Positions 3,036 to 43,079 of a stretch of DNA of 64,000 nt are shown here, one piece after another. The notes under the pieces are model-generated. The model was not told the DNA's origin. It worked only from the letters and a program-made list of their open reading frames with translations, and ran no database searches. Both the position numbers and the translations under genes were made by a program. The first letter of the stretch is position 1; each line of letters begins with the position of its first letter. This stretch comes from Pandoraea pneumonica (GTDB taxonomy: Bacteria > Pseudomonadota > Gammaproteobacteria > Burkholderiales > Burkholderiaceae): assembly GCF_902459645.1 (NCBI RefSeq), contig NZ_CABPSK010000001.1, positions 186,001 through 250,000 of the forward strand, given 5' to 3'.

Positions 3036-3081
3036 GCAGACATCATCAGCCGTTGCGGCGGTTGAGGAGGATGTCATCTCC
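3036..3081 (-). promoter_or_regulatory. Fluoride riboswitch 1 (crcB motif), antiporter operon
   Basis: Read on the minus strand the site has GGAGATGACATCCTCC, then AACCGCC and GGCTGATGATGTCTGCG, the complete fluoride aptamer layout. The usual GGCAT/ATGCC stem is GACAT/ATGTC here, a compensated base-pair change. The 3' strand GTCTGCGC (3041-3034) can pair with GCGCAGAC (3016-3009), which is also the 5' arm of a strong hairpin at 3021-2995 (GGGGTGCGCAG/CTGCGCCCCC). Aptamer and downstream hairpin are thus linked by mutually exclusive pairing, as expected for an ON switch. Confidence 0.95.
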
Positions 3082-3096
3082 TTACTACTATTGCCG

Positions 3097-3125
3097 AGTA
3101 TAGAAGGTGGGAATTCCTTATTCAA
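3097..3125 (-). promoter_or_regulatory. Sigma-70 type promoter for the antiporter operon
   Basis: On the minus strand TTGAAT and TATACT are separated by 17 bases and lie just upstream of riboswitch 1, so transcription would start about 10 bases before the aptamer. The site overlaps the last codons of the preceding 145-aa gene. Confidence 0.65.
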
Positions 3126-3559
3126 GCCATCACGGTGGAACGGGCTCGTCTGTACTCGACGAGCCGATACAGACATTCTGCGAGAGTCCTGCCTGTCGCG
3201 CGCTTGCCGTTCTGGTCAATAACAAGAAACGCTTCGTCCGACGGCCGCTCATTGAAGCCAAACACAGATACATGCCCCAACTCGCGCATCGCCCAGTGAG
3301 TGAACTCAGTCTGTTCTTGTTCGATCGAGCACACCCCGAGATAGTCTGGCCAGCGAGCCTCCCTGATTGCTCGTAATTCACCGGCCGGTCGTCCCGTCTT
3401 CTCGCAAATCGTAGGGATCATCGCTAACGCAGTCGGCTCGTCGGCTACGTCGCCTGCCAAGATTTCGTCGTTGTTGTCCTTAATAACCCAACGCGATTTG
3501 GGATTTGCGCCCATCATCCGCCCGATGCGGGCGTTCACATCGGAAACCTGCACTTCCAT
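3122..3559 (-). CDS. Uncharacterised 145-aa protein in the pyrophosphatase operon
   Basis: Starts at an ATG with GGGAG 7 bases upstream. The sequence has two halves, each with a KxRWVIKDNNDEI- or EAFLVIDQNGKRA-like strand-turn followed by a TALAM or TLAECLY helix, which suggests a small internally duplicated alpha/beta protein; this is my reading, not a recognised family. It is soluble, with no signal peptide or membrane segment. It is third in the DUF190-ppa operon behind fluoride riboswitch 2, 56 bases after ppa. A role in fluoride or phosphate stress is plausible from context only. Confidence 0.75.
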   Translation of the reverse strand: MEVQVSDVNARIGRMMGANPKSRWVIKDNNDEILAGDVADEPTALAMIPTICEKTGRPAGELRAIREARWPDYLGVCSIEQEQTEFTHWAMRELGHVSVFGFNERPSDEAFLVIDQNGKRATGRTLAECLYRLVEYRRARSTVMA

Positions 3560-3615
3560 TCATACTCTCCCGGTTTTGCTCTCGTACGTAAAAGTGCCAG
3601 AGACCACTCATACGT

Positions 3616-4149
3616 CTAAGCGTGTGGCTTGAACGCGGCTTGCGCTTCAAGGAGCTCTTTGCGGGCCGCGTCAATGTCGCCCCATCCCTCGAAGCGAACC
3701 CATTTGCCGGGCTCAAGGGACTTGTAGTGCTTAAAGAAATGTTCGATTCTGCTAAGAAGCGCTTCACCCAGGTCAGGCAGCACCTCGATACCAACACTGG
3801 CCGCACAGATCTTATCTATTGGGACAGCGATGACTTTTGCGTCTTCGCCAGCCTCGTCGGTCATTTTCATTAATCCGATAGGGCGGCATCGGACTAATGC
3901 ACCGGTTTGTATGGGATATGGCGCTACGACAAGAACATCAACCGGATCCCCATCTCTCGACAGCGTGCTTGGGACAAAACCATAGTTCGCCGGATAGCGC
4001 ATGCTGGTCGATAGGAACCGGTCAACACGAAAGAGGTTAAGTCCCTTGTCAGCTTCATACTTGACCGGTGAAGCGTCTGCGGGGATCTCGATAATGGCGT
4101 TGAAATCGTCCGGGATGCTGGTCCCAGCGGGGATGCTATTGAAGTCCAT
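3616..4149 (-). CDS. ppa: Inorganic pyrophosphatase, family I
   Basis: A protein of 177 residues, the normal size of bacterial family I pyrophosphatases (PPi + H2O to 2 Pi, cytoplasmic, Mg-dependent). Visible signatures are KYEADK, the RFLSTSMRYPANYGFVP core, the metal site DGDPVDVLV, and MTDEAGEDAKVIAVP. The start at MDFNSIPAG is set by homology, as the upstream ribosome site is weak. Fluoride is a classic inhibitor of this enzyme family because it replaces the nucleophilic hydroxide, so an extra copy behind a fluoride riboswitch makes sense. Whether this copy is less sensitive cannot be seen. Confidence 0.95.
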   Translation of the reverse strand: MDFNSIPAGTSIPDDFNAIIEIPADASPVKYEADKGLNLFRVDRFLSTSMRYPANYGFVPSTLSRDGDPVDVLVVAPYPIQTGALVRCRPIGLMKMTDEAGEDAKVIAVPIDKICAASVGIEVLPDLGEALLSRIEHFFKHYKSLEPGKWVRFEGWGDIDAARKELLEAQAAFKPHA

Positions 4150-4207
4150 AGAGGAAGAGCCTTTTGGCAGGGGAAAGTCATTTTTCGCGCGGCGGAAGCC
4201 CAGCAGG

Positions 4208-4525
4208 CTAGGTATCACCGAGCATCTCGAAATCGATGGGGAAGCGCGTGTAAAAGACATGAACTCGCTCTGCTCGCACAACGTCGAGCAGACGTTCGGC
4301 CTCCTCGTCTGTTATTGCGAGCACAACCTCAATCGGTTGTTCGGCGAGTTCGAAAAATCGTGCGGCATGAAGCTTGCCGACGTGGTCGATTCCTTCTGTG
4401 CCGGCAATCATCGTCGCGCCACGAATGCCCAACCGGCGCACTTCGAGCATGAGCCATTCGGCTACCGTCTGATGGCCGTGCCGATGATTTTGCTGGGTAT
4501 AGAAAGTGAGCTGACATCCTTGCAT
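4208..4525 (-). CDS. DUF190 family protein (copy 2)
   Basis: A protein of 105 residues. The start is the ATG with GGAGGT 4 bases upstream, giving MQGCQLTFYTQQN. Typical DUF190 segments are present: LGIRGATMIAGTEGID, GKLHAARFFELAEQPIEV and VFYTRFPIDF. The fold is PII-like; the function is unknown, although family members cluster with fluoride transporters. First gene of the operon behind fluoride riboswitch 2, followed 58 bases later by ppa. Closely similar to copy 3 at 20.5 kb. Confidence 0.88.
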   Translation of the reverse strand: MQGCQLTFYTQQNHRHGHQTVAEWLMLEVRRLGIRGATMIAGTEGIDHVGKLHAARFFELAEQPIEVVLAITDEEAERLLDVVRAERVHVFYTRFPIDFEMLGDT

Positions 4526-4680
4526 GATGACCTCCACGGGAGCCACGCGAGCGAAGTCCGGGCGTAGTTCCGCTAGCCCAAAGACAAATTCGTAGGATTT
4601 TTGTCTCGCATAGGTCCCTCCGTCAGCTTATATTTTTCGTGGTCGACGGGGACGAACTCCTACGCCCCGCGTCAGCGGTA

Positions 4681-4730
4681 CGTAGGCATCATCAGCCAAA
4701 AGTGGCGGTTACAGGAGGAATGCCATCTCC
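4681..4730 (-). promoter_or_regulatory. Fluoride riboswitch 2, DUF190-ppa operon
   Basis: Minus strand: GGAGATGGCATTCCTCC, AACCGCC, then GGCTGATGATGCCTACG, a consensus aptamer. The 3' strand CCTACG can pair with CGTAGG about 16 bases downstream, inside a second possible hairpin (GGGG...CCCC), giving the same exclusive-pairing design as riboswitch 1. The leader to the DUF190 start is about 155 bases and holds a further hairpin, GACAAA/TTTGTC. Confidence 0.95.
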
Positions 4731-4769
4731 TATCTATGTCTAATCTAGCATATCACGGTTCATTAGTGG

Positions 4770-5249
4770 CTACGATGTAGCCGTGCCAAGCGTAGCAACG
4801 GCTCGATCAGGGTACAAAAACAACTTCAATGCAGAATGGATAAGGCCAGTCACGATGTCGGCAGCCGCAATCGCTTCTGACGCTGCGCCTTCGTGTCCGA
4901 TGACGGCAATCGACAGACGTGCGGCGTTGAACATGTCGACATCGTTTCGCCCATTTCCAATGGCAGCCACTCGCGGCGCTCCCAAATGGCGAACGTAGTC
5001 GGCCTTCATTACCCCTTGTTCCGCACCGTGTAGCGAAACCAGTTGCACAGGGAGATCCTTGGCTCGTTCGGCAATATCGCCATATACGTCCCCTGCGACC
5101 ACATGTAACAGCACATCGCGTGAGAGGACATGGAGGAGGGGGGTGACTCCGGGAAGCACCACACCGTTGCGGCCTAACGTGCCATTGAAATCGAGAACAA
5201 TATGTTCTAACGAGAGTTCCCCGAACCCTGGGATATCGATATATAGCAT
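4770..5249 (-). CDS. HAD-superfamily hydrolase, compact
   Basis: A protein of 159 residues with GGGGAGGA upstream of the ATG. HAD motif I appears as VLDFNGTLG, where DFNGT replaces the usual DxDGT, so the second Asp is Asn. The last motif is AIGNGRNDVDMF. Length and layout resemble the short soluble P-type-ATPase-like HAD proteins. The missing second Asp suggests altered or lost phosphatase chemistry. It lies 16 bases after enolase in the operon of fluoride riboswitch 3. The substrate is unknown. Confidence 0.8.
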   Translation of the reverse strand: MLYIDIPGFGELSLEHIVLDFNGTLGRNGVVLPGVTPLLHVLSRDVLLHVVAGDVYGDIAERAKDLPVQLVSLHGAEQGVMKADYVRHLGAPRVAAIGNGRNDVDMFNAARLSIAVIGHEGAASEAIAAADIVTGLIHSALKLFLYPDRAVATLGTATS

Positions 5250-5265
5250 TAAGTCCTCCCCGTTT

Positions 5266-6573
5266 TCAGCTAACGTCTACTGAGGAAGTCACGGCAAATG
5301 CGTTTGGACCGGCGTAAGTGGCGGCATCTCCAAGCTCGTCTTCAATCTCGAGTAGGCGGTTGTATTTCGCGACTCGCTCTCCGCGAACCGGCGCTCCAGA
5401 TTTTATTTGCCCGCAATTGAGTGCAACGGCCAAATCGGCTATTGCGGTATCTAACGTCTCTCCAGAACGATGCGAAACCATGCATCGGTACCCAGCGTGC
5501 AGGGCCATGCGCGCCGCATCTAGCGTCTCGGAAACTGTCCCAATCTGGTTCGGCTTGATTAGCGCGCAATTACAGCACTTTTCATCAATGCCGCGGCGTA
5601 GGTACGTTGGATTGGTGACAAACAGGTCGTCTCCGACAATCTGCACTCGGCCACCAAGCCTTTGTGTAATGTTGGCGAACCCATTCCAATCGTCGTCTGC
5701 CAGCGGATCTTCTAGGGAAACGATTGGGTATCTGTCGAGCCAGTCAGCCCAAAAGGAAATCAACTCGTCGGAGGTGAGTCGCATCGTTTCAAGGCGAAGG
5801 AAGTACTCATCCCCCTCGCGGAATGCACTCGCAGCCGGATCCAGGCCAATGACGACGTCAGTGCCCGCGGCATAACCGGCTCGCTCAATGGCTTCCATTA
5901 GGAACGTCAAAACCAGCTCATTGGTTGGTGCGCCGGGGACATAGCCCCCCTCGTCGCCGATGTTGGCCGTGTACCCGCGAGAGACGATGACTTTTCCTAG
6001 CTCGTGATAAATTTCCGAGCCGTATCTGAGCGCTTCTGCGTACGTTGGGGCGCCAACGGGCACGATTTTGTACTCTTGGATGTCTGTCCCGCCTGTGGCG
6101 TGGGCACCGCCGTTTACGACATTGAACATTGGCACTGGGAGTACGTGAGCGTTGGAGCCTCCCAGATAGGCATAAAGTGGTATTCGATGAAATTCAGCCG
6201 CCGCTCTTGCGCACGCCAGAGACGTCGCGAGTGCCGCATTTGCCCCTATGTGAGATTTCGTGGGGGTTCCGTCAAGGAAGATTAACAAGTTGTCGATTTC
6301 CCGCTGCCTGTCTACCCGTTTGCCGTGCAACGACGCAGCCAGGCGACCATTTACGTTCGCCATTGCGTGGCGTACGCCTTTGCCGCGATAGCGTGACGTG
6401 TCTTCGTCACGCAACTCTTTTGCTTCAAATGTTCCTGTGGATGCACCCGATGGACATGACGCGGTAGCTGTCACGCCGCCCGTGACTGTTACTGTGACTT
6501 CAAGTGTTGGGTTGCCGCGCGAGTCGAGAATTTCTCTGGCCTGAAGCGCTTCAACGAGGGGAATTGACTGCAT
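5266..6573 (-). CDS. eno: Enolase, divergent paralogue
   Basis: A protein of 435 residues; the start ATG has GGGAG 6 bases upstream. Converts 2-phosphoglycerate to phosphoenolpyruvate. Core residues are present: SGAST, GDEGG, the metal ligands in GLDPAAS, SLEDP and GDDL, IKPNQIGT, SHRSGET and QIKSGAP. Flanks differ from the usual enolase: AASAF for AASEF, KPNQ for KVNQ, SGETLDT for SGETEDT, and SGAPVRGER for TGAPxRSER. Enolase is the textbook fluoride-inhibited glycolytic enzyme, so a riboswitch-driven variant may be a tolerant replacement copy. It is first in the operon behind riboswitch 3. Confidence 0.95.
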   Translation of the reverse strand: MQSIPLVEALQAREILDSRGNPTLEVTVTVTGGVTATASCPSGASTGTFEAKELRDEDTSRYRGKGVRHAMANVNGRLAASLHGKRVDRQREIDNLLIFLDGTPTKSHIGANAALATSLACARAAAEFHRIPLYAYLGGSNAHVLPVPMFNVVNGGAHATGGTDIQEYKIVPVGAPTYAEALRYGSEIYHELGKVIVSRGYTANIGDEGGYVPGAPTNELVLTFLMEAIERAGYAAGTDVVIGLDPAASAFREGDEYFLRLETMRLTSDELISFWADWLDRYPIVSLEDPLADDDWNGFANITQRLGGRVQIVGDDLFVTNPTYLRRGIDEKCCNCALIKPNQIGTVSETLDAARMALHAGYRCMVSHRSGETLDTAIADLAVALNCGQIKSGAPVRGERVAKYNRLLEIEDELGDAATYAGPNAFAVTSSVDVS

Positions 6574-6646
6574 GACGCTCTCCCGATGGGACATGCCGCA
6601 TAGGGCACGCCGTTGCGAAATTCCGAGGGGCGAAGGCCCGTCGGTT

Positions 6647-6693
6647 CGTAGGCATCATCAGCCGGGAGGCGGTTGAAGGAGAATGCCATCTCC
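6647..6693 (-). promoter_or_regulatory. Fluoride riboswitch 3, enolase operon
   Basis: Minus strand: GGAGATGGCATTCTCC, AACCGCC, GGCTGATGATGCCTACG. Downstream is a GGGC-CTTC-GCCC hairpin, and GGCAT at about 6603-6599, near the ribosome site, is complementary to the aptamer 3' strand ATGCC. Control at translation is therefore possible here, unlike the terminator design of riboswitch 7. A TAGACT -10-like box lies about 12 bases upstream. Confidence 0.95.
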
Positions 6694-6750
6694 TATGTTG
6701 TTGAAGTCTACCCGAAACGCCATGAGGTTTCATCGAGAAGTTTTCGTCTC

Positions 6751-6780: not shown

Positions 6781-6790
6781 AACCCGAAAG

Positions 6791-6842
6791 GGAGATGGCA
6801 TTCCTCCAAAACCGCCGGGTAGCACGGCTGATGATGCCTACG
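6791..6842 (+). promoter_or_regulatory. Fluoride riboswitch 4, crcB
   Basis: GGAGATGGCATTCCTCC, AACCGCC, GGCTGATGATGCCTACG: consensus aptamer, oriented towards crcB and divergent from riboswitch 3, about 100 bases away. An intrinsic terminator follows at once. Confidence 0.97.
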
Positions 6843-6849
6843 AGGTTCG

Positions 6850-6870
6850 GCGTGCTGAACACGCTTTTTT
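6850..6870 (+). terminator. Intrinsic terminator in the crcB leader
   Basis: GCGTG-CTGAA-CACGC followed by six T, 8 bases after the aptamer and 20 bases before the crcB ATG. This is the expected regulated terminator. The overlap between aptamer and terminator strands is less obvious than at riboswitch 7. Confidence 0.85.
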
Positions 6871-6889
6871 CTTACCCCGGGGTTCGTCA

Positions 6890-7267
6890 ATGTACACAGC
6901 CGTCTTAGCCGTCGGAATTGGAGGCGCACTTGGTTCACTGCTGCGTTGGGTACTAGGTGTTCGACTAAACGCACTGTTCATCGACCTTCCACTTGGCACC
7001 TTGGCGGCGAATCTAATCGCCGGCTACATCATTGGTGTCGCGATCGCGTTCTTCTCCAGATATCCGGAGATTCCTTCGGAGTGGCGGCTGTTTGTCATCA
7101 CCGGTCTGATGGGCGGCTTGTCAACGTTCTCCACATTTTCCGCAGAGGTGTTCAACCATCTTCAGGCTGGGCACTACGCCTGGGCGTTGGGTGAAATCGG
7201 CATTCATGTCACTTGCTCGGTCCTTATGACAGCGTTGGGTTACGCAACTGTCGTCGTTTTTCAGTGA
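6890..7267 (+). CDS. crcB: CrcB/Fluc fluoride channel
   Basis: A protein of 125 residues, the normal length for this dimeric dual-topology fluoride channel of the inner membrane. Visible motifs: [13 protein letters not shown] near the N-terminus, the conserved [14 protein letters not shown] helix, and [17 protein letters not shown], which carries the phenylalanines and the TFST track of the pore. Four hydrophobic helices are apparent. The start is fixed by homology, as the ribosome site is weak. Transcription passes through riboswitch 4 and its terminator, so expression should rise with fluoride. Confidence 0.97.
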
Positions 7268-7303: not shown

Positions 7304-8419
7304 TCATGGGAAGAACGCCATAAAAACAAAGGCGCAGCAGATGGTTGTGTGCAGTGACCCACGAAGTACCGAGGCACGTCCGGAAACAACAGTCAGGATT
7401 CCGACTACCGTGGTGAGCACAAGGAAGACCATTTCTTTGGGGCCGAGACCAAGTGTTAGTCGAACTTGCATGAAGTTCGCGGCCACGGCCACTACAGGAA
7501 TGGTCAGTCCCAAACTAGCCATGGCTGAGCCAAGTGCTAAGTTAAAACTCACTTGTACTTCTCCAGCATGCGCTGCACGCATAGCCGTCAGCGTTTCTGG
7601 AAGAGCAACAATGATCGCAATCATGACTCCTACTGAGGAGATGGGAAGGTTGGCGTTCTGAACCATTGACTCGATGCTCGGAGCCAAGATTTGAGCGGCG
7701 AGAGTTATAGCAACCAATGCTGATAGAAGCAGCAGGACTGCGGGTACGGCATTAGGTCGCTTTGCGATTCGGATTGGCACGGCGTTTGATGCCGCTCGGC
7801 GTTCCGCATTGACGTACTCGTGTAACCAGCCAGTAGACTTCACCACATGGAGAACATAGAGGACGACTGACGCGCAGGAGGCGAACGTCAACTGTGCTGT
7901 ATTGAATTGTGGGCCGGATGTGCTGCTGGTGAACGTGGGGAGTACCATCGAAAGCGTCGCGACCGTCGCGACCGTCGCGACGGTCGCGAAGGCCGCGCCA
8001 GTGATGAACGCATCAAACTTTACGATCTGTTCCCTGCGGGTGCTGACGAGAAGCGAAAGGCCAATCATCCCGTTGCAGCACAGCATGAGCGAAGAAAATA
8101 CAGTGTCGCGTGCAAGGGTCTGAGTCGTCTTCGCGTCTGCAGCCATTACTGAAATTATGAATCCCGCCTCGATAACAGTCACTGCTAGCGCGAGGATCAG
8201 CGTTCCTAAGATTGGACCAAATCTAGCGGCAAGACGCTGAGCATAGTGCACGGAACATAATGCTAAGGCCGCAATCGTCAGCAACAGGGTCCACATACAA
8301 AAATGACCGACGGGCATGTGGAATGCCGAGATGACTACCCCCCATCCGGCGGCAGTTACGACGTATGGCCAACCAAGGGCTCCTAATCTCAGCCACCTGG
8401 TTTCGGGGTTGGGAATCAT
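7304..8419 (-). CDS. chaA: ChaA-like calcium/cation:proton antiporter
   Basis: A protein of 371 residues with about 10-11 membrane helices. The two CaCA alpha-repeats are visible: GTLILALAVTVIEAGFIIS near residue 72, and IIVALPETLTAMRAAHAG with NLALGSAMASLGLTIP in the second half; the membrane glutamates of both repeats are kept. ChaA exchanges Ca2+ (or Na+/K+) for protons in the inner membrane. The gene follows cfa by 113 bases on the same strand, so it is probably in the riboswitch 5 transcript. An in-frame 9-base tandem repeat encodes VATVATVAT around residue 148. Confidence 0.85.
   Translation of the reverse strand: MIPNPETRWLRLGALGWPYVVTAAGWGVVISAFHMPVGHFCMWTLLLTIAALALCSVHYAQRLAARFGPILGTLILALAVTVIEAGFIISVMAADAKTTQTLARDTVFSSLMLCCNGMIGLSLLVSTRREQIVKFDAFITGAAFATVATVATVATLSMVLPTFTSSTSGPQFNTAQLTFASCASVVLYVLHVVKSTGWLHEYVNAERRAASNAVPIRIAKRPNAVPAVLLLLSALVAITLAAQILAPSIESMVQNANLPISSVGVMIAIIVALPETLTAMRAAHAGEVQVSFNLALGSAMASLGLTIPVVAVAANFMQVRLTLGLGPKEMVFLVLTTVVGILTVVSGRASVLRGSLHTTICCAFVFMAFFP
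7956..7991. repeat. Four tandem copies of a 9-bp unit inside chaA
   Basis: GTCGCGACC, GTCGCGACC, GTCGCGACG and GTCGCGAAG lie head to tail. The unit is a multiple of three, so copy-number change would only alter the number of VAT tripeptides within a membrane helix region. Confidence 0.9.
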
Positions 8420-8532: not shown

Positions 8533-9699
8533 TCAAGTCCCCGGAGGCCGGTGGTAGCCTCCCGCAACCCCTTTTTTGGAAAACACCCATTGCCAGAGCT
8601 GCGCCTCGCGAGATCTGAATAAGCCCGCACAGGACAGCAAGTAGTACTTCCACATGCGATGGAATTGCTCCCCCAACTGGTCACAAAACTGTGGCCAACC
8701 GCGCTCGAAATTTGCGTACCACGCCATCAGTGTGCGGTCGTAATCCGCACCGAAATTGTGAACATCTTCTGTTACAAAAAGACCGCTTGCGGCACCTGCG
8801 ATTTGGTCCATGGCAGGAAGCTCGCCGTTCGGGAAAATGTATTTGTCTATCCAGGGATCGGGATGAGTGCCAGCTCGGTTCTTGCCGATGGTGTGGAGAA
8901 GAAAAAGTCCATCGTCGCTAAGACACCGCGACGCTACTTGCATATAGGTGCGGTAGTTCCTCGCGCCGACGTGTTCGAACATTCCGACACTTGCGATGCG
9001 GTCAAACGGTTCGTTTAAGCTCCGATAATCCTGCAGTCGGAATTCGAGAGGAAGCCCATCGTACCGGGACTTTGCCCAAGTCGCCTGCTCTTCAGAGATC
9101 GTGACCCCGACACAATGCACCCCATAGTACTCTGCGGCGAAAGCCATCAGGCTTCCCCAACCACAGCCGATATCGAGAAGGCGCATTCCGGGTCTTAGTT
9201 GCAGCTTTCTGCATATCAGATCCAGCTTGTCTTCCTGAGCGCTGTTCAGTGATTGTGCTCCGGCAGACCAATAGCCACAGGTATAGGTCATGCGACGATC
9301 CAACATGACGCTATAAAAGTCGTTGCCCAAATCATAGTGACGTCTGCCCACGTCCCACGCTCGGCGCACCGATTGTCGATTAAAGAGCTTCTCGCGCAGC
9401 GTTATGTAGATCAACTTGCTTGGCTGAATATGTTCGTCGAGACGTGCCCGCAGTGCTTTGGCGAAAAATTCGTCGAGCTCGTCACACTCCCAGCGGCCAT
9501 TCATATATGCCTCACCGAGTGCGAGCGAACCTCCCGTCAGCAAATCGCGAGCTAGGGTATGGTCGAGTATCTTCATATCCCAAGGGCGGGGGCCGTTAAT
9601 CTGTATGTCAGCGCCAAGCAGAATTTGCTCGATAAATTGACTCGCTGTGACACGAGCGTTTGTGGCAGTAGCCTGCTTTGATATCGTAGTTGATGTCAT
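8533..9699 (-). CDS. cfa: Cyclopropane-fatty-acyl-phospholipid synthase
   Basis: A protein of 388 residues starting at the ATG preceded by GGGAG and 7 bases. SAM-dependent methyltransferase that adds a methylene bridge to unsaturated phospholipid acyl chains. Visible: RAWDVGRRHYDLGNDFY, the SAM loop LLDIGCGWGSL, GVTISEEQ, the ASVGMFEHVG segment, and HTIGKN. It resembles E. coli Cfa in layout, with a proline-rich end of its own. It is the first gene behind fluoride riboswitch 5, followed by chaA. A membrane change that lowers HF permeability is a possible reason for fluoride control; this is inference. Confidence 0.93.
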   Translation of the reverse strand: MTSTTISKQATATNARVTASQFIEQILLGADIQINGPRPWDMKILDHTLARDLLTGGSLALGEAYMNGRWECDELDEFFAKALRARLDEHIQPSKLIYITLREKLFNRQSVRRAWDVGRRHYDLGNDFYSVMLDRRMTYTCGYWSAGAQSLNSAQEDKLDLICRKLQLRPGMRLLDIGCGWGSLMAFAAEYYGVHCVGVTISEEQATWAKSRYDGLPLEFRLQDYRSLNEPFDRIASVGMFEHVGARNYRTYMQVASRCLSDDGLFLLHTIGKNRAGTHPDPWIDKYIFPNGELPAMDQIAGAASGLFVTEDVHNFGADYDRTLMAWYANFERGWPQFCDQLGEQFHRMWKYYLLSCAGLFRSREAQLWQWVFSKKGVAGGYHRPPGT

Positions 9700-9976
9700 G
9701 CGCACTCTCCCTGCGGCTCGCGCTGTGCGCGTGACCTAACGATGCTGATGATCTTTAGCGCGGAAGAGTGGCGTAGCGCGAGGCTTGCCACGCCGATTGG
9801 TGGCCCAAACTGAAGGGGGGGCTACAGTAGCGGCGTTACAAGTAGCGGTACGCTTGGTGAGATCCGGGCGGAGCGGACGCCGGAAAATAGAAAGAGGGCG
9901 CATATATTCCACGTTTGCTGGGAACAAACCTGGGATGCTGCCAATAGACGGCCTACGATCTCCCACCCCAGGGATT

Positions 9977-10027
9977 CGTAGGCATCATCAGCCGATAAAG
10001 CGGCGGTTTCGGAGGAATGCCATCTCC
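9977..10027 (-). promoter_or_regulatory. Fluoride riboswitch 5, cfa-chaA
   Basis: Minus strand: GGAGATGGCATTCCTCC, AACCGCC, GGCTGATGATGCCTACG. CCTACG can pair with CGTAGG about 19 bases downstream (near 9952-9957). The leader to cfa is about 275 bases long, the longest in the set; I see no further gene in it. This and the promoter account for the 9700-10194 gap. Confidence 0.95.
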
Positions 10028-10037
10028 ATCGCAAGTT

Positions 10038-13587: not shown

Positions 13588-13637
13588 GAATAACTCCCGT
13601 CGGCAACACTACAGACGCGTACCCTTGGGGTACGACC

Positions 13638-13686
13638 TGTAGGCATCATCAGCCTTGACGGGCGGTTACGGGAGAATGCCATCTCC
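13638..13686 (-). promoter_or_regulatory. Fluoride riboswitch 6, Cys/His protein and MFS
   Basis: Minus strand: GGAGATGGCATTCTCC, AACCGCC, GGCTGATGATGCCTACA. The 3' strand CTACAG pairs with CTGTAG some 23 bases on, enclosing an internal hairpin GTACCC-CAA-GGGTAC. The second strand is about 13 bases from the GGGAG ribosome site, so translation control is possible. A perfect TATACT -10 box lies about 11 bases upstream. Confidence 0.95.
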
Positions 13687-13733
13687 ACGGGGGAGTATAG
13701 CGCAAGGGGGAAAAAGCAGGGCACCGTTCCATT

Positions 13734-13762
13734 TTGCTCAAAGCATTTCCACGTGCTAGACT
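13734..13762 (+). promoter_or_regulatory. Promoter for the MutS-like pair
   Basis: TTGCTC and TAGACT with 17 bases between, ending 8 bases before riboswitch 7, so the transcript would begin almost at the aptamer. Confidence 0.65.
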
Positions 13763-13770
13763 GGCCTCGT

Positions 13771-13821
13771 GGAGATGGCATTCTCCCTCAAGCGCCAAAA
13801 TTTTGGCTAATGATGCCTACG
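13771..13821 (+). promoter_or_regulatory. Fluoride riboswitch 7, MutS-like operon
   Basis: GGAGATGGCATTCTCC, then AAGCGCC and GGCTAATGATGCCTACG. Two positions differ from the other copies (AAGCGCC for AACCGCC and CTAATG for CTGATG), so affinity may be altered. The 3' strand GCCTACG is itself the 5' arm of the terminator that follows. Confidence 0.93.
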
Positions 13822-13853
13822 TTTTCCCGGTGATGGGGTACGTAGGCTTTTTT
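13815..13853 (+). terminator. Riboswitch-controlled intrinsic terminator
   Basis: GCCTACG (13815-13821) pairs perfectly with CGTAGGC (13841-13847), followed by six T. The 5' arm is the aptamer's own 3' strand, so a folded fluoride-bound aptamer excludes the terminator: a clear transcriptional ON switch. Confidence 0.92.
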
Positions 13854-13896
13854 ATGCCCTGTTGCCATGAATGCGCTCAGCTAAATGGAAGGCAAC

Positions 13897-15561
13897 ATGG
13901 CACATTCCTCAATCAGTTCCGCCGCAGATCCAATGGCCCTGCAAGCCGCGGGCGCGCGCAAAAGCCTCAGTCATGGGGACTCGCCAGCAGACGAACGGCA
14001 GGTCGCGCCGAGTCTGCCGTCCGGCGGGAGCCGGACACCTGCGCCGAGCCTTCTTTACGAAGGCCCAGAACCAGCAGAGCTAAGATCTAAGGCGCCCCCT
14101 ACGTTCGTTGACCTTCACCTCGGGTCGGTGATGTTGCACGTCAATACGAACGAGGCGGAATTCGACCTCAATCCCATCCTCAATACGCCGCTCCAACGCT
14201 TGGCGGATATCAGGTATCGGCAGGACATCGCAGGCGAACTGGAGTTGCCGGCCGTCATTGCTGCTGTCAATGAATTCGCCGAGTACATGCGTCATCAGCG
14301 AAAAAGCGAGGAGCGATCACTCAAAGCCTATTTCGGATATGAGAAGAAATTCTGGTTCCTTGATGGGGCACGCCAATACTGTGCTGCCGTAGATGGAGTG
14401 GCAGCGGCATTCGATGCGCTAGAGCTGAAGTCCGCAGGTCTTCAGCGAATGCGAGCGTACGTCACCGAATACGCGCACAGTCCAGAGTATGTCGCGCTCA
14501 AGAACGAAGTTCTCGCACTCATAGAAATGCTTGCCGAAGTTCGCTATTGCGTATGGATTGATGGCGGAGAGGTCACGGTGTATCCGTTTGGAGGCGAACG
14601 CGATTACAGTGAAGCGATACATGACACGTTCGCAAAGTTCCAAAAAAACGCCGTTCGCGATTATCGAGTCGCCTACAAGAATTCGGAGAGCATGAATCAT
14701 GTCGAATCGTGGATCGTTGACCTCGTAGCGCGACGATACCCCGATAAGTTCTCCAAGTTGGATGCATTCGCGCAACGGACAGCCTATAAGGACGCCGGTG
14801 TAGTCAAGTTCGACCATGAGGCTACGTTTTATCTTGGCTACTTCAACTATATAGCGAGGTTCCGAGAGGTGGGGTTGCCGTTTTGTTATCCCGATGTCAC
14901 TACGGAGAAGGGGGCAATCTTCGGAGATGGCATATTCGACCTCGCTCTTGCTGAGAAACTCGAGCAGAACGGCTTATCGGTGATTCAGAATGATTTTCGA
15001 CTAGATGGCCAAGAGAGAATCATTGTCGTATCGGGCCCCAACCAAGGCGGAAAGACGACCTTCGCCCGCATGTTCGGCCAATTGCACTATCTGGCTGTGT
15101 TGGGGCTTCCTGTGCCGGCACGTGCAGCCAAGCTCTATCTTTCCGATGAGATTTTCACCCACTTTGAACGATCCGAGGACATCACGACGCTCCGAGGGAA
15201 GCTAGAGGATGACCTGTTCCGGATGCACGAGATATTAGACAAAGCGACGCCGCGAAGCCTCATCATCATGAACGAGATATTCTCGTCAACGTCTTTGCAA
15301 GATGCGATGAAGCTGGGAGCACGCATTATAGAAAAGCTGTCAGCACTTGATGCTTACTGCGTATGTGTCACGTTCATCGACGAACTCTCCACGATTAACG
15401 AAAAGACGGTCAGCATGGTTAGTATGATTGACCCGAAGAATCCTGCAGTGCGAACGTTCAGAGTCGAGCGTCATATTGCTGATGGGCTTGCGTATGCCCA
15501 TGCCATCGCTGAGAAGTACGAGATTACCTACGAATGGTTGATGAGGAGGGTGCCGTCATGA
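13897..15561 (+). CDS. MutS-like ATPase A
   Basis: A protein of 554 residues if started at the ATG behind GGAAGG (four residues after an earlier ATG at 13885 that lacks a ribosome site). A MutS V-type ABC ATPase domain is at the C-terminus: Walker A GPNQGGKTT, a Walker-B-like SLIIMNEIF, and STSLQDAM. The N-terminal mismatch-recognition domain of MutS is absent; a helical core-like region fills the middle. The protein therefore probably binds DNA or another polymer rather than mismatches. Its stop overlaps the next start (ATGA). Controlled by fluoride riboswitch 7. Confidence 0.85.
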   Translation: MAHSSISSAADPMALQAAGARKSLSHGDSPADERQVAPSLPSGGSRTPAPSLLYEGPEPAELRSKAPPTFVDLHLGSVMLHVNTNEAEFDLNPILNTPLQRLADIRYRQDIAGELELPAVIAAVNEFAEYMRHQRKSEERSLKAYFGYEKKFWFLDGARQYCAAVDGVAAAFDALELKSAGLQRMRAYVTEYAHSPEYVALKNEVLALIEMLAEVRYCVWIDGGEVTVYPFGGERDYSEAIHDTFAKFQKNAVRDYRVAYKNSESMNHVESWIVDLVARRYPDKFSKLDAFAQRTAYKDAGVVKFDHEATFYLGYFNYIARFREVGLPFCYPDVTTEKGAIFGDGIFDLALAEKLEQNGLSVIQNDFRLDGQERIIVVSGPNQGGKTTFARMFGQLHYLAVLGLPVPARAAKLYLSDEIFTHFERSEDITTLRGKLEDDLFRMHEILDKATPRSLIIMNEIFSSTSLQDAMKLGARIIEKLSALDAYCVCVTFIDELSTINEKTVSMVSMIDPKNPAVRTFRVERHIADGLAYAHAIAEKYEITYEWLMRRVPS

Positions 15562-17093
15562 ATGCGTTTCTCATGCACCCGGATCGGGACTTCTCACCAC
15601 CGGCCCAAGGGGCCTGGGATAGAGATGAGCTGGCTAAGGATTTGGCGTTGCCAACGCTTTGGCATGCCATGGCGATGGAGGACGAGTTCTTGTATGAGGT
15701 AGCGAAGCGCGCGACTTATGGGGCGCTGACCAACGATGCGGAGACCATTCGCCATAGGCATGCTGTTTTGCGAGACTGTCAGGCCCATGGCGAAGTTATC
15801 GATGCTATCTACCAACTTGCACTGAGTGCTATTGAGGAGAAAGGAAAGTCGTATTTCGGGATACTTTCTACGTACCCAAGCGCTGTGTTGCATGGTGCGC
15901 TCGAAGTGATGGAAATATTCGTCAAGAAGCTCAGAGACTTGCGGAAAATTGCTGAAGAAAGTGAGAGCACCTTCTCGTCCGACGCATTCAAGCGCCTTTT
16001 TTGCATGCTTAGAGAGGAGCTTTCTGATGAATACCTGAGCGAAGTTGAGCATCACCTCGCCATCTTGCATTTTCGGCGTGGCGTATTGCTAAGCGCTTCA
16101 TTGGGCAAAGACGGTCGAGGTATCGACTATATCGTTCGACTCCCGAATGCCGACGAGCGGCCATGGTGGAGAAGACTCATCAAGCGGCGAAGATCGGAGT
16201 TTTCGTTTGAAATTCCGGAGCGCGATGATGCTGGTGCGCAGGCGCTTAGTGACATCCAGGGGCGTGGAATTAATGCCGTCGCAAATGCGCTCGCCCAATC
16301 GATGGAGCATATTCTTGGCTTTTTTGTGCTCCTGCGTACTGAACTCGCATTCTATCGAGCCCAGCTCAACTTGCAGAAACAACTTGGGTTGCTTGGCGCC
16401 AAACTCTGTGTTCCGACCGTTGCGCCATCGGGATCGCGAGGGCTCCGATTTGATGAGATGTATGACGTGTGCCTTGCCTTACAAATGCAGAAGGCTATTG
16501 TGGGTAATCGGGTCAACGCCACAGGGAAGTCACTCGTGATGATTACTGGGGCGAATCAAGGCGGGAAATCCAGCTTCCTGCGTAGCGTAGGCGTCTCCCA
16601 GCTCATGTTCCAAGCGGGTATGTTGGTTGGTGCGGATCAATATGAGAGCGAAATCTACCAAGGGATGTTCACGCACTACAAGCGGGAGGAGGATGCCGGG
16701 CTGGAAAGTGGAAAATTTGATGAGGAGGTCTCGCGAATGAGCCGGATAGCGCAAAAAATTGTTCCAAACTCGATGCTACTGTGTAACGAGTCTTTTGCTG
16801 CGACCAACGAGCGAGAAGGATCCGCAATCGCCCACGATGTAATCCGCGCCATGCTCGACAAAGAAATACGCGTACTCTTCGTCACGCATTTCTATCATCT
16901 GGCTCGGTCTGTTATTTCGTCGGAGGTCGGGAAGACCTTATTTCTCCGTGCTCCGCGTAATGAGGACGGGACGAGGAGCTTCCGACTTATCGAAGGGGCA
17001 CCACTTGAGACGAGCTTTGGCGAGGATCTTTACAGGCGCATTTTTTGCGAGGATTTAGTGCTTAGCAGTCAGACGACCAAGGCCGATGTTTAA
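15558..17093 (+). CDS. MutS-like ATPase B
   Basis: A protein of 511 residues, starting at the ATG behind GGAGGG, with ATGA overlap to ATPase A. It has the same layout: a helical N-terminal half, then Walker A GANQGGKSSF, MLLCNESFAATNEREG (Walker B and signature region) and the switch VLFVTHFYHLA. The two proteins are distant paralogues, and translational coupling suggests a heterodimer, like eukaryotic MSH pairs. Neither has a nuclease (Smr) tail. The function in fluoride stress is unknown. Confidence 0.85.
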   Translation: MNAFLMHPDRDFSPPAQGAWDRDELAKDLALPTLWHAMAMEDEFLYEVAKRATYGALTNDAETIRHRHAVLRDCQAHGEVIDAIYQLALSAIEEKGKSYFGILSTYPSAVLHGALEVMEIFVKKLRDLRKIAEESESTFSSDAFKRLFCMLREELSDEYLSEVEHHLAILHFRRGVLLSASLGKDGRGIDYIVRLPNADERPWWRRLIKRRRSEFSFEIPERDDAGAQALSDIQGRGINAVANALAQSMEHILGFFVLLRTELAFYRAQLNLQKQLGLLGAKLCVPTVAPSGSRGLRFDEMYDVCLALQMQKAIVGNRVNATGKSLVMITGANQGGKSSFLRSVGVSQLMFQAGMLVGADQYESEIYQGMFTHYKREEDAGLESGKFDEEVSRMSRIAQKIVPNSMLLCNESFAATNEREGSAIAHDVIRAMLDKEIRVLFVTHFYHLARSVISSEVGKTLFLRAPRNEDGTRSFRLIEGAPLETSFGEDLYRRIFCEDLVLSSQTTKADV

Positions 17094-17569: not shown

Positions 17570-18298
17570 CTAGAGAATCTTCGATGCCGAGCTGTCGATG
17601 CCCGTATTCAGGTAACGGACGTTCCGGACGCGTAGTTTGGAGTCCAGCTCGTACACCATGGGTGTCGCATTTGGGATATCCATCTCGCAAAATGTGGACG
17701 GATTTGTGCCGTGCATTGCCGCGATGAGCATGCGAAGACTATTCCCGTGGGCACTGATTAGTACACAGCGTCCCAATCGGAGTAACGGGGAAATGGTATC
17801 TATCCAGCTCGGCTTAACTCTATTGAACGTATCCCGCAGCGATTCTGCGCGAGGTATGAATGGTATGGTGACACCGTGAGACCTTGATAGACGGTCTACC
17901 AAGGTATGAGCTTCGGAAATCTCCATTCGCGGGGGGCAATGAGCATAGCCTCTGCGCCACTGATGCACGGTGCTAGCGCCGTAGATTGCTTCGGCTTCTT
18001 GGCGGTCTAGACCAGTTAACGCACCATAGTGTCGTTCGTTCAATCGCCAATCGAGGAGGCAATCCCGATGTCTGACGGTTTGCACCATCTTCAATATGTG
18101 TGTCTGTGAATCAATCGCACGCCGAAGGCTCGAGGTAATAGCAACGTCAACGTGTAAGCCGGCATCCGCAATCGCCATTCCCGCGCAACTGGCTTGTTTT
18201 GCACCGAGCGCTGTTAGTTCAACGTCGGTCCACCCTGTGAAGCGTTGTTCGCGATTCCAGAGTGACTCACCATGCCGTACTAACACGATGGTCCTCAA
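17570..18298 (-). CDS. gpmA: 2,3-BPG-dependent phosphoglycerate mutase (GpmA-like)
   Basis: A protein of 242 residues. I place the start at a TTG with GGGAG 7 bases upstream, giving LRTIVLVRHGESLWN, because longer frames would overlap the preceding gene. The catalytic RHGESLWN, FTGWTDVELT, RRAIDS, LNERHYGALTG and AHGNSLR motifs are all present. Interconverts 3- and 2-phosphoglycerate, one step above enolase. Second gene after the dynamin-like GTPase, 37 bases on, under riboswitch 8. Fluoride block of enolase raises 2-phosphoglycerate, which may explain its place here. Confidence 0.9.
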   Translation of the reverse strand: MRTIVLVRHGESLWNREQRFTGWTDVELTALGAKQASCAGMAIADAGLHVDVAITSSLRRAIDSQTHILKMVQTVRHRDCLLDWRLNERHYGALTGLDRQEAEAIYGASTVHQWRRGYAHCPPRMEISEAHTLVDRLSRSHGVTIPFIPRAESLRDTFNRVKPSWIDTISPLLRLGRCVLISAHGNSLRMLIAAMHGTNPSTFCEMDIPNATPMVYELDSKLRVRNVRYLNTGIDSSASKIL

Positions 18299-18335
18299 GT
18301 CGTCTCTCCCTATATGCGGATTCTGCTGTTTGTGC

Positions 18336-20393
18336 CTATGTATTGTTTCTGATGACTCCGGCGGCGGTACTGGAGGTGCCGTTAGGTTCATTTGTGCAAG
18401 CACCTGTCAGCCGAGCCAGCGCATCTCGCATTGCCGATAGACGCATCGCAACCGAATTTCTCGGATCGGTCAGGCGAATGCTCTCGTTGTTCAGCCAGGT
18501 AAGTCTTGCGCGCGACCATCCCTGTGCTGATTCGTTAAGTATCTTGCTGGTGTCACATGTCCAACTTTCCAGCGTCTCAGGTACTTTAAGATTGGTCAAT
18601 GCGCGCACTACGCGCGACTTGAGTGGTCTCCAGCGAGATTGGTGTGTTAGTTCATCGCAGAATCTTCCCGCGGTCAGACGTCCAAAATCAATCTCGGGTA
18701 GCTTGGGAACGCGAGGATAGGGGCCATCAAAGTCGGTATGAGTGTCTGACATTGCCTGTCTCGCATGTGCAATGAATTCGCGAAAGGCCGCCTCCCGCTG
18801 CCTCAACTGCTGCGTTATGCAATCAGCATCGGAGCTCACGCGACTTCGGATGGACGCTAGGATTAGCGGCGCCGGGTCAATTAATGCTTCGGGATCTCGT
18901 CGTGCGAGCTCTGCGATGTTCTCACTGGCTTCTGAAACGGCTTCGCGTATCGTAGACATGGACGTATTGCCGGTCATGCCAACGCAAGGGGGATTGTCAA
19001 GGCAATGGCTTGCGCGAGACAGCGCTTGATGGCAGCGAGTCGAACAGATTTCTAATTCCGCAGTCGAGCATTTCGATTCGAGGGATCGGATTTTTGCGTT
19101 CAATGTGGCAATTACATCACGCCTCAAGTTATTGATACGCCTGGATCTCACATCGCTCTTAATTCGCGGACGTTCGGTGACTCTTCCTTTGATGAAGCCG
19201 TCAATCCACAACGAGTTCATCTCCTTATGTTCGCCCTTGGCACTCGACAGATAGATTGCAGTATGTTTGCCAAGAGTGCGTCTTATGCTTTTGTCTGCAT
19301 GTTCGAGGACTGACCATTGCTCGCGCAGCGAGAGCTGATCTGCCTTATTGATTAATACGGCGAGCTCACCACCCAGATCAACTGCTCGGCTCGCGATGCG
19401 TAAGTCCAGATTGCAAGGGCCGTGCGCATCGGTAACCAAAATGGCTAAATCGAAGTAAGGGGATGCTCGCCACCACCAGCCACCGGATTCGACCCCGTCG
19501 ATGCCGGGTGAGTCGATAACAACCAGCCCATCACAAAGGTCTGCTCTCGGCAAGTCGACTGTCGCCAGCGCCACATGCTTGGAATTGTGCTTGTTCCATT
19601 GGAAGTTAAGAAATTCGTCAAGCTGGGTTGGCGGCGTCTCAGCGATGCTTCCGTTAGAGAAAAGGATTCGGACACAGGCCTTCTCTTTTGCCGATTCGAC
19701 CAATGTTGTCGCGGCAGTGGTGGGGATGGGGCCAGTCGGTAGGTTTGCCGTGGGCGCCATAAGATTGGTGAGGGACGTTTTCCCAGTACAGGCCCTTCCG
19801 ACCAGTAAGACATGCAGGGCAGACGAAGTACGTTGGTTGACAAGCACTTCCGCGCGCTCTTGCAATGAGCTAAATCCGAAGAGGGCGCAGGTGAGAAGCA
19901 ACTCATCGAGTTGAGTCTCAGCAGGAGTGTCCGATGTGTCTTGAATGTGGTGTTTGTCGGCATGTGCGTAGGCAACCGACAGGGAACAACGAACGATTTC
20001 GACTGCGTCCTCGACTCGATCAATGAACATGGTGACGTGGCGCGAGAACTCTGGAAGGGACGGCGGCGACGCTCGGCGAAGTGATAAATCTAGCTGTGAG
20101 ATTAAGGCTGGAATTTCATCAAGGCACGAGCGCATCGCCTGAAACGTGTCGCTTGAGTCGAGAGGAGGGGCTGCGCCGACGCTACTTATCAGGTCGAATA
20201 TCGCGAGGCGGACGCGGTGAATTGCATCTAGCGTCGTATCCCTAACAAGGGCAGGTTCCTCGTCACAGTATTGGGAGAGGCGAAAATCCGCCGGTGATGT
20301 ATCCAAGATGCTGCGGAGTTCGTCAAATTTCTCCAGAAGCCCTTGGAGTTGAGCTGCGATCTCGGGCGAAACGACATGCTGGGTGGATGCCAT
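18336..20393 (-). CDS. Dynamin-like / GTPase-domain protein
   Basis: A protein of 685 residues, starting at the ATG preceded by GGAG and 9 bases. The GTPase motifs are clear: G1 GRACTGKTS (199-207), a switch-I Thr-rich TTAATT, G3 DSPGIDG (294-300) and G4 NKAD (349-352). The N-terminal 180 residues and the region after the G domain are helical, and no transmembrane helix is evident. This fits the dynamin-like or GBP-like bacterial GTPases that act at membranes. Behind fluoride riboswitch 8 with gpmA. The role in fluoride stress (for example membrane repair) is unknown. Confidence 0.85.
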   Translation of the reverse strand: MASTQHVVSPEIAAQLQGLLEKFDELRSILDTSPADFRLSQYCDEEPALVRDTTLDAIHRVRLAIFDLISSVGAAPPLDSSDTFQAMRSCLDEIPALISQLDLSLRRASPPSLPEFSRHVTMFIDRVEDAVEIVRCSLSVAYAHADKHHIQDTSDTPAETQLDELLLTCALFGFSSLQERAEVLVNQRTSSALHVLLVGRACTGKTSLTNLMAPTANLPTGPIPTTAATTLVESAKEKACVRILFSNGSIAETPPTQLDEFLNFQWNKHNSKHVALATVDLPRADLCDGLVVIDSPGIDGVESGGWWWRASPYFDLAILVTDAHGPCNLDLRIASRAVDLGGELAVLINKADQLSLREQWSVLEHADKSIRRTLGKHTAIYLSSAKGEHKEMNSLWIDGFIKGRVTERPRIKSDVRSRRINNLRRDVIATLNAKIRSLESKCSTAELEICSTRCHQALSRASHCLDNPPCVGMTGNTSMSTIREAVSEASENIAELARRDPEALIDPAPLILASIRSRVSSDADCITQQLRQREAAFREFIAHARQAMSDTHTDFDGPYPRVPKLPEIDFGRLTAGRFCDELTHQSRWRPLKSRVVRALTNLKVPETLESWTCDTSKILNESAQGWSRARLTWLNNESIRLTDPRNSVAMRLSAMRDALARLTGACTNEPNGTSSTAAGVIRNNT

Positions 20394-20450
20394 GTTGTTA
20401 TTCTCCGCATCATGAACCACTCAATACCATGGTCAATAGCCAAGGTGATT

Positions 20451-20500
20451 GGGTAGGCATCATCATCCGATAGCGGAGGTTTTGGGGGAATGCCATCCCC
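20451..20500 (-). promoter_or_regulatory. Fluoride riboswitch 8 (variant), GTPase-gpmA operon
   Basis: Minus strand: GGGGATGGCATTCCCCC, then AACCTCC and GGATGATGATGCCTACC. The stem is re-paired (GGGG/CCCC), but AACCTCC and GGATGATG differ from the AACCGCC and GGCTGATG of most copies, so this is the least canonical aptamer. CAAT-C-ACC can pair with GGT-ATTG downstream. The leader to the ATG is only about 57 bases. Confidence 0.85.
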
Positions 20501-20522
20501 GCAGTCGCAGTATCGTGTCGAA

Positions 20523-20843
20523 TTAGTCTCCTCCGAGGTATCCGTACTCGATGGGAATTCGAGTATAGAAGAGCTTGACGCCACCGGCCGAGAGCGCAGC
20601 AACTAGCGAGTCGATCTTAGCCTCTTCCGCTACGACGGTAATTGCCACGGGCTCGTCCGCCAGTTCGAAGAATCGGGCCGCATGCAATCTGCCGTCGGCG
20701 CCCACTCCGGTGGACGCCTGTACGGTCGTTTGGCCGCGGATGCCCGTTTGTTCAATTAGCGACGCGATCCACGTATCGGCGTCTTGGCCACCCTTCTTCT
20801 GGTTCTTTGTGAAGTAGACCGTCAACTGGCTGCCTTTGGCCAT
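20523..20843 (-). CDS. DUF190 family protein (copy 3)
   Basis: A protein of 106 residues; the ATG lies 5 bases after GAGAGGT. MAKGSQLTVYFTKNQ, TGIRGQTTVQASTGVGADG, GRLHAARFFELADEPVAI and LFYTRIPIEYGYLG mark it as DUF190, close to copy 2. Sole gene behind fluoride riboswitch 9. Riboswitch 8 begins 23 bases after its stop, so read-through into the GTPase operon is possible. Confidence 0.88.
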   Translation of the reverse strand: MAKGSQLTVYFTKNQKKGGQDADTWIASLIEQTGIRGQTTVQASTGVGADGRLHAARFFELADEPVAITVVAEEAKIDSLVAALSAGGVKLFYTRIPIEYGYLGGD

Positions 20844-20965
20844 GTGAACCTCTCCCAATGCGGGTCTCGGCCATAAACACGGAGAACGTGCAATAGCTGA
20901 GCGCTTATCGATCCGAAATGCGGGGAGTTAAGTTCATGCGCCTACATCCCGTGCGTCTCGGGCTC

Positions 20966-21017
20966 CGTAGGCATCATCAGTCGCGAACGCGACGGTTGAA
21001 GGAGGAATGCCATCTCC
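20966..21017 (-). promoter_or_regulatory. Fluoride riboswitch 9, DUF190 copy 3
   Basis: Minus strand: GGAGATGGCATTCCTCC, AACCGTC, GACTGATGATGCCTACG. The GCC/GGC pair of other copies is GTC/GAC here, a compensated change that supports the stem. CCTAC can pair with GTAGG about 21 bases downstream. The leader to the ATG is about 120 bases. Confidence 0.95.
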
Positions 21018-43068: not shown

Positions 43069-43079
43069 TTAGATAGAGA

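Follow-up and report, generated by a model that had tools for sequence, protein, structure and literature searches.

The stretch of DNA analysed here (the window) comprises 64,000 nucleotides (nt) of Pandoraea pneumonica, C1:186001-250000 of a 5.85 Mb genome in 12 contigs; coordinates without a prefix are window positions. Together with the DNA directly to its left, it holds ten fluoride riboswitch aptamers, which span approximately 22–23 kb and stand before ten transcription units. The arrangement was read as an acquired fluoride-resistance island wired by RNA, in which no regulator protein would be needed, and a probability of roughly 0.87 was assigned to this reading. The island is of a known type with a tested relative, that of E. 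cloacae FRM; its testable part is the role of a pair of MutS-like ATPases.

Aptamers were called with Infernal cmscan against Rfam at the gathering threshold (34 bits for the fluoride riboswitch family, RF01734). The preliminary description had reported nine fluoride aptamers of one common layout in 18 kb, each ahead of a different operon on either strand, and the covariance check confirmed this: all nine were matched over the full model (positions 1-64 of 64; 48.6–57.3 bits, E 3e-13 to 2e-10), far enough above the cut-off to rule out chance or mis-called aptamers, and 9/9 preceded different genes or operons on their own strands (Table 1). The count of nine stands for the window and falls short of the full extent. 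A tenth copy (C1:184756-184820(+)) stands ahead of a CLC-DUF190 unit, 1.2 kb beyond the left end of the window, and an eleventh (C2:707898) precedes another CLC-type exporter, 69% identical to the island CLC over 441 residues; the genome total is 11, all over the cut-off. The gap from aptamer end to first start codon was 26–266 nt (start codons as in the list of open reading frames, ORFs), and the two divergent pairs are spaced by 79 and 66 nt in cmscan coordinates. In the ORF-based listing, the 6782 copy was left without an operon because the ORF caller had placed the crcB start inside the aptamer; by sequence, this start is the ATG at 6890.

The density was compared with a family sample (398 genomes including this one, with up to 12 candidates scored in each) and a phylum sample (299 genomes, 16 candidates scored per genome). 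In the family, 181/398 genomes had a match (171 over the cut-off), with at least two in 22 genomes, at least three in 14 and at least ten in 5. In the phylum, a match was found in 58/299 (51 over the cut-off), and this genome alone exceeded two. The earlier statement that fluoride switches usually occur once or twice per genome agrees with the phylum sample, in which the 57 other matching genomes had one or two, but not with the family clusters of at least ten. Four genomes reached through the MutS-like protein had 21 (L158, a Sulfotelmatobacter metagenome-assembled genome, MAG), 14 (L154, Paraburkholderia ferrariae), 14 (L085, Acidicapsa dinghuensis) and 14 (L093, an Acidobacteria MAG) matches with E no higher than 0.001, some of which did not exceed the cut-off. 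A unique density record is ruled out by these genomes and the family clusters; the concentration, previously described as exceptional, is rare but not unique.

The own aptamers were further compared with 79 Rfam aptamers from the principal aptamer-bearing regions of the remaining 13 family genomes with at least three copies (a few copies on other contigs were excluded; the island of G364 is split over two contigs). The core GGNGATG[GA]CAT is common to all own copies, and all 11, judged by eye, carry a first-loop GATG and a 3'-strand ATG; A6, U7, G8, U41 and G42, in the numbering of the T. petrophila structure, are the nucleotides coordinating Mg and fluoride. Covariation was counted for pseudoknot and P3 pairs in 21 of the 90 aptamers, chosen by hand (11 own, 10 others); P1 was left out, as the MAFFT alignment misplaces it owing to a one-base insert. 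All 168 cells were paired, 4/8 pairs had changed on both sides, and 0/500 shuffles were as high on four of five measures. In the pseudoknot, G-C is replaced by A-U on both sides in the 3030 copy and the other four pairs are invariant; compensating P3 changes occur in the 20447 and 20961 copies.

In the 11 own leaders, a -10-like hexamer ends 4–16 nt upstream of the first helix and scores 5.41 on average vs 2.75 in shuffled sequence by a weight matrix (z 5.6; z 17.7 for the 79 others). Downstream complements of the aptamer 3' strand also exceeded chance (z 6.2 for the own leaders, z 20.0 for the others, 0/500 shuffles), and mononucleotide shuffles were used in both tests. The competing hairpin is followed by a U tract in 3/90 leaders, namely those of mutSab in the window and in the congener G031 and one G324 leader. 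Given the few U tracts and the hairpins at crcB and mutSab, terminators are expected at these two units, and control elsewhere may therefore be translational or Rho-linked.

Table 1. Aptamers, genes and hairpins of the island (window positions; aa, amino acids)
Feature	Position	Strand	Match or score	Remarks
HIT-domain protein	668..1246	-	PF01230 E 4e-21	PDB HIT/Fhit relatives
Third DUF190 gene	98..607	+	PF02641, just at cut-off	After CLC exporter of tenth aptamer
Universal stress protein (Usp)	1209..1625	-	PF00582 E 5e-32
CPA2-like cation/proton antiporter	1640..2863	-	PF00999 E 1.7e-39	CPA2 subfamily model below its cut-off
Fluoride aptamer	3030..3090	-	51.6 bits	Leads cation/proton antiporter-Usp-HIT operon
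145 aa protein	3122..3559	-		No Pfam, NCBIfam or PDB match
Family I inorganic pyrophosphatase (PPase)	3616..4281	-	PF00719 E 2e-51	Start probably near 4146
DUF190 protein	4208..4546	-	PF02641 E 7e-14	phmmer to 1o51 TM0021 E 1e-6
Fluoride aptamer	4676..4739	-	56.9 bits	Leads DUF190-pyrophosphatase-145 aa protein operon
HAD-like hydrolase	4770..5249	-	PF08282 E 3e-5
Enolase	5266..6594	-	PF00113 E 5e-111	9/10 typed active-site patterns found
Fluoride aptamer	6642..6702	-	57.2 bits	Leads enolase-HAD operon
Fluoride aptamer	6782..6847	+	56.9 bits	Leads crcB; divergent from 6642 copy
Intrinsic-terminator-like hairpin and U tract	6849..6875	+		After crcB aptamer
CrcB (Fluc) fluoride channel	6890..7267	+	PF02537 E 4e-26	91.9 bits vs cut-off 32.9
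ChaA-like calcium/proton antiporter	7304..8419	-	PF01699; TIGR00846 E 7e-46	TIGR00846 below cut-off
Cyclopropane fatty acyl phospholipid (CFA) synthase	8533..9705	-	PF02353 E 1e-89
Fluoride aptamer	9972..10036	-	57.3 bits	Leads CFA synthase-Ca2+/H+ antiporter cassette
MFS transporter	10936..12144	-	PF07690
461 aa protein	12202..13587	-	PF19538 E 6e-4	Weak DUF6062, below cut-off; no PDB match
Fluoride aptamer	13633..13695	-	49.1 bits	Leads 461 aa protein-MFS operon
Fluoride aptamer	13762..13826	+	48.6 bits	Leads MutS-like pair; divergent from 13633 copy
Terminator-like hairpin	13815..13853	+		GCCTACGT of aptamer tail paired with ACGTAGGC; TTTTTT follows
MutSa, MutS-like ATPase	13885..15561	+	PF00488	Lever and domain V; Walker B Asn-Glu
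MutSb, partner ATPase	15534..17093	+	PF00488	Walker B Asn-Glu
Phosphoglycerate-mutase-like protein	17570..18403	-	PF00300 E 2e-31
Dynamin-like GTPase	18336..20420	-	PF00350; PDB 5owv E 2.5e-7
Fluoride aptamer	20447..20509	-	49.8 bits	Leads dynamin-like GTPase-phosphoglycerate-mutase-like operon
DUF190 protein (second)	20523..20858	-	PF02641 E 2e-13
Fluoride aptamer	20961..21026	-	52.9 bits	Leads second DUF190 gene
Histidine phosphatase	21064..21888	-	PF00300 E 1e-49	Right edge of shared stretch; no aptamer directly before

Protein families were assigned to the translated window ORFs by Pfam, NCBIfam and PDB sequence comparison (Table 1). An exporter and second copies of fluoride-sensitive enzymes were found under fluoride aptamers, and the earlier view that shared RNA leaders join exporters, replacement enzymes, membrane modification and unknown proteins into one gene set is supported by aptamer placement and family matches. 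Enolase and PPase each have one other genome copy (the core enolase at C1:1714004, the PPase at C6:67971), and the island copies are therefore spares. The typed enolase patterns missed the E-loop in the island copy and D246 and K345 in the core copy, which is a limit of the patterns. A fluoride-resistant enolase signature was considered and no claim is made: island enolases differ from core copies in many columns (for example, EDPL for EDG, GAP.RGE after Lys), but similar motifs occur in ordinary Gram-positive enolases. The island CLC exporter, left of the window, matched PF00654 (E 5e-68 on 368/440 residues); its translation contains GREGT and EGGNN, and it is a candidate CLC-F, a class of exporters in which the halide-filter Ser is replaced. 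The HIT-domain protein may act against adenylyl-fluoride; a literature search on this role returned FHIT cancer work.

DNA shared with G031 starts abruptly at window position -1261 (C1:184,739), and G031 continues for 26 kb to the left unmatched. Identity is 93% up to 7447 and, after a stretch with no match (7447-11930), 72% and 71% up to 21684; the unmatched part is mostly the CFA-antiporter cassette with its aptamer, which is not present in G031. The guanine-plus-cytosine (GC) content is 0.545 in positions 1-22000 vs 0.62–0.65 in four core loci, and approximately 9 kb to the left there is a transposase whose domains are an integrase core and a Mu-type C-terminal one. Among the genus members sampled, two genomes had at least ten aptamers and every other had 0 or 1. 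A megablast search of the island against plasmids gave one 68-base match only. The island looks like a mosaic, mobile unit, and was probably acquired by transfer.

Several observations weigh against the island as a fully RNA-wired, acquired unit. The fifth covariation measure, which counted further pair types, was not above shuffles (171/500), and the competing hairpin reached p 0.05 individually in only 6/11 own leaders (49/79 in the others). Clear U-tract terminators were found at only 2 units in the window, and the one at crcB is a separate hairpin that does not use the aptamer tail. Scans of the whole region gave no excess of sigma-70-like sites (10 vs 12.8 expected) or terminator-like sites (13 vs 19.9 expected). 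The 13762 copy has AAGC for AACC, as do only 2/90 aptamers, the other being its G031 counterpart (L016:17512-17576); the accompanying CTAATGA is common (23/90), and the ligand affinity of the AAGC variant may differ from the usual. Two genes, for the nucleotidyltransferase at 10195 and for the histidine phosphatase at 21064, are without aptamers of their own. The right end cannot be fixed because the G031 match stops 538 bases before the G031 contig end, and GC content does not change sharply at both borders, with 0.59 in the immediate left flank and 0.537 in the right one, which is itself a region of defence and phage genes.

The MutS-like pair, missed in the preliminary description, is the most constant component of the multi-switch islands. 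In BLAST comparisons with the window proteins, the pair and DUF190 were each found in 14/14 multi-switch genomes, CLC in 13, enolase in 9, PPase in 8, crcB in 5, CFA synthase in 4 and the antiporter in 3, and recurrent families were also found, close to aptamers, on Klebsiella, Burkholderia, Rhodococcus and Rubrobacter plasmids. As a separate observation, a block of about six genes stands behind one aptamer in 10/13 other multi-switch genomes, judged by ORF lengths (L028:2839-10250; similar in L026, L027, L029, L030 and L032). Five genes of the L028 block match, at 66–95% identity, B. multivorans plasmid genes annotated as or adjoining NADH-quinone oxidoreductase/hydrogenase-type subunits; no such six-gene block was found in this island.

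A MutSa profile search of the genome collection matched at least 592 stretches; a relative is encoded in at least 575. Of these, the best 80 were analysed; they are the top-scoring relatives, not a random draw, and were scored more deeply than the comparison samples. By record title, they belong to Chloroflexi, Acidobacteria, Bacillota, Pseudomonadota, Desulfo- and Spirochaete lineages, Planctomycetota, Actinomycetota, Thermotogae, Atribacteria, Elusimicrobia, Nitrospirae, Verrucomicrobiota, Bacteroidetes, Poribacteria, Woesearchaeota and Bathyarchaeota. MutSb was on the same strand as MutSa in 80/80 (median gap 0 nt; 79/80 within -100 to 400). Fluoride aptamers were matched with E no higher than 0.001 in 76/80 genomes (36 and 40 in the two sets of 40) and over the RF01734 cut-off in 68/80 (34/40 and 34/40), compared with 51/299 in the phylum sample, 171/398 in the family and 4/14 control genomes. 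At the locus itself, Rfam found at least one aptamer in 14/14 hand-picked MutS loci, in 8 directly before mutSa. An own strict descriptor (threshold 11, set after the scores had been seen; one shuffled hit at 9) recovered 83/90 known aptamers and none elsewhere in 430 kb, and gave no further match in the rest of the G324 contig. It placed an aptamer in 36/80 of the best loci, 17 directly upstream of mutSa, figures to be read with its many misses outside the family (blank in L085, L103, L108, L117, L150 and L156, where Rfam matched). With the window proteins as queries, a fluoride-linked gene was found in 45/80 of these loci (enolase 25, crcB 14, PPase 10).

MutSa and MutSb (558 and 519 aa) carry domain V near the C terminus and have no further Pfam match. 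They share with MutS, MutS2 and KamC the lever and domain V ATPase fold and are short like the 508-position KamC model, but differ from all three in the Asn-Glu Walker B, the pairing and the fluoride context. Asn-Glu was read in 96/96 MutSa and 87/88 MutSb sequences. At E 0.001, Pfam reported only MutS_V, and the Walker B is Asn-Glu and not Asp-Glu as expected of DNA mismatch repair MutS; the Smr and KOW domains of MutS2 were likewise not reported at this threshold. KamC, named in NCBIfam NF052383 as a lysine 5,6-aminomutase reactivase, was rejected as the family of MutSb: the model needs more than 300 bits, the two proteins gave 52.5 and 72 bits in the domain V region only, and long MutS2-like proteins outscored MutSb on it (up to 248 vs 72 bits). 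The predicted MutSa structure had a mean predicted local distance difference test (pLDDT) score of 73.8, with residues 1-54 below 50, and the domain arrangement is uncertain because root-mean-square deviations were approximately 6–11 Å. The MutSa protein is 77% identical in G031.

The pair may be a fluoride-tolerant reactivase. A detailed version, in which a heterodimeric ATPase would stay active in high fluoride through the Walker B Asn of both subunits, which would handle Mg-F differently, and would extract Mg-fluoride from locked metalloenzymes such as enolase and PPase, a third pillar beside export and enzyme replacement, is improbable as it stands. A possible, if doubtful, alternative is that the pair is not a reactivase but rescues ribosomes or nucleic acid in the manner of MutS2 and would be induced since fluoride-aluminium complexes freeze GTPases on ribosomes. 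The Walker B differs from those of MutS and MutS2, the neighbours of the pair are metabolic enzymes and transporters, and Smr, KOW and mismatch-recognition domains were not reported by Pfam at E 0.001, all of which argues against such a factor. In a literature search outside which most subscription journals lay, no paper was found that joins the fluoride riboswitch with MutS, alone or together with enolase, or that joins at least three of KamC, aminomutase, reactivase and MutS; none was found on multiple fluoride riboswitches, and no relevant one on fluoride with DUF190. The founding riboswitch papers are said to list mutS among the associated genes.

The number of switches might also reflect recent amplification, with aptamers spread within the island as local duplicates and not kept independently as ten switches, which the common core would fit. 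Within the island, the CFA leader is closest to the DUF190 and CLC leaders, and the 4676 DUF190 leader has its nearest relative in the CFA leader of this same island. Among 68 testable aptamers, with island groups set by hand, the nearest relative of a leader stood before the same first gene in 43/68 (label shuffles: mean 14%, highest of 300 28%) and lay within the same island in only 3/68, so that same-gene kinship outweighs same-island kinship and local duplication, which we regard as very unlikely, is not supported overall. The same-gene rule was strongest for CLC (14/14), the six-subunit module (10/10) and the antiporter (3/3), intermediate for mutSa (10/15) and DUF190 (5/12), and weak for the 461 aa protein (1/4), enolase (0/5) and crcB (0/5); in the window's own island it held for 3/8 testable leaders. 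Since leaders resemble same-gene leaders elsewhere, some of the units tend to move as a switch joined to its gene. That the island is a degraded storehouse, gathered by transfer and with several genes and leaders no longer regulated or used, is hardly credible: the mosaic identities to G031 and the weak competing hairpins at some units would fit it, but the ORFs listed are uninterrupted, promoter-like signals and compensated pairs persist in the leaders as a group, and the mutSa aptamer variant is retained in G031 despite the divergence of the protein.

The fluoride-resistance island read here from RNA leaders has close counterparts. In sequence, helices, pseudoknot and 5' leader position, the aptamers agree with RF01734 and are ordinary except for the 13762 variant; the difference lies in ten copies in approximately 22 kb before ten units. 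In E. cloacae FRM, a fluoride-induced island with crcB, eno, ppaC, uspA and gpmA has been described, deletions in which lower resistance (PMC5533749). As described there, its GI3 has one riboswitch and one six-gene operon, compared with ten switches in the Pandoraea island, and a Mn-type PPase in place of the family I enzyme; beyond that set, the Pandoraea island adds a CLC exporter, CFA synthase, antiporters, the MutS-like pair and dynamin. The words MutS, cyclopropane and dynamin are absent from that paper. Methylobacterium extorquens DM4 reportedly has at least ten fluoride riboswitches in one genome (PMC6785547). Exporters, Na/H antiporters, pyrophosphatase, HAD proteins and enolase are given as riboswitch-linked in a 2024 review, in which MutS, mismatch, DNA repair, cyclopropane and dynamin are words that do not appear (PMC11139923). 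The MutS-like pair also occurs in the stretches read of three plasmids: with 3 aptamers, eno, crcB, a DHHA2 protein, gpm and Usp in Klebsiella (NZ_CP058867.1); with 6 aptamers, two eno, two PPase, two DUF190 and dynamin in B. multivorans (NZ_CP143553.1); and with 4 aptamers, crcB and CLC in B. cenocepacia (NZ_CP073707.1), in which stretch no enolase or PPase is annotated. The plasmid clusters differ in gene order, and in B. multivorans by NADH/hydrogenase-type subunits, which were not found in the Pandoraea island.

Beside the island, defence genes were observed at 30402-46920 (a ThsB-like TIR protein, HamA/HamB of Hachiman, an RT-Toprim reverse transcriptase and an HNH endonuclease). A tyrosine integrase followed by phage-like genes, as judged by eye, occupies 48825-64000, with a GC content of 0.585 from 50 kb on. 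A type II hammerhead ribozyme was matched at 57573-57636 (+) (42.8 bits vs the Rfam cut-off of 37) in this prophage-like region.

In the proposed mechanism, each of the ten short transcription units would open with a fluoride aptamer a few bases after its promoter. In the absence of fluoride, the aptamer 3' strand would pair into the downstream competing hairpin and expression would be off, at mutSab by an intrinsic terminator, at crcB by a nearby terminator and at most other units by a hairpin without a U tract, through translation block or Rho. With Mg-bound fluoride, the pseudoknotted aptamer would keep its 3' strand and the genes would be expressed. The CLC-type exporter and CrcB would then export fluoride, the CPA2-like and Ca/H antiporters restore pH and cations, and enolase, PPase and phosphoglycerate mutase replace inhibited enzymes; CFA synthase may tighten the membrane against hydrogen fluoride, and the MutS-like pair may repair or release fluoride-locked targets. 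These roles are predictions.

The arrangement suggests that one ion commands ten operons via RNA alone, and it provides a gene list for fluoride survival, which may be useful for hosts of organofluorine degradation and biosynthesis. It also raises the testable question of which proteins besides exporters a cell needs under fluoride, for which the MutS-like pair is the clearest lead. If its proposed role holds, a fluoride-related pair that databases label as DNA mismatch repair MutS would be common to many bacterial phyla and some archaea.

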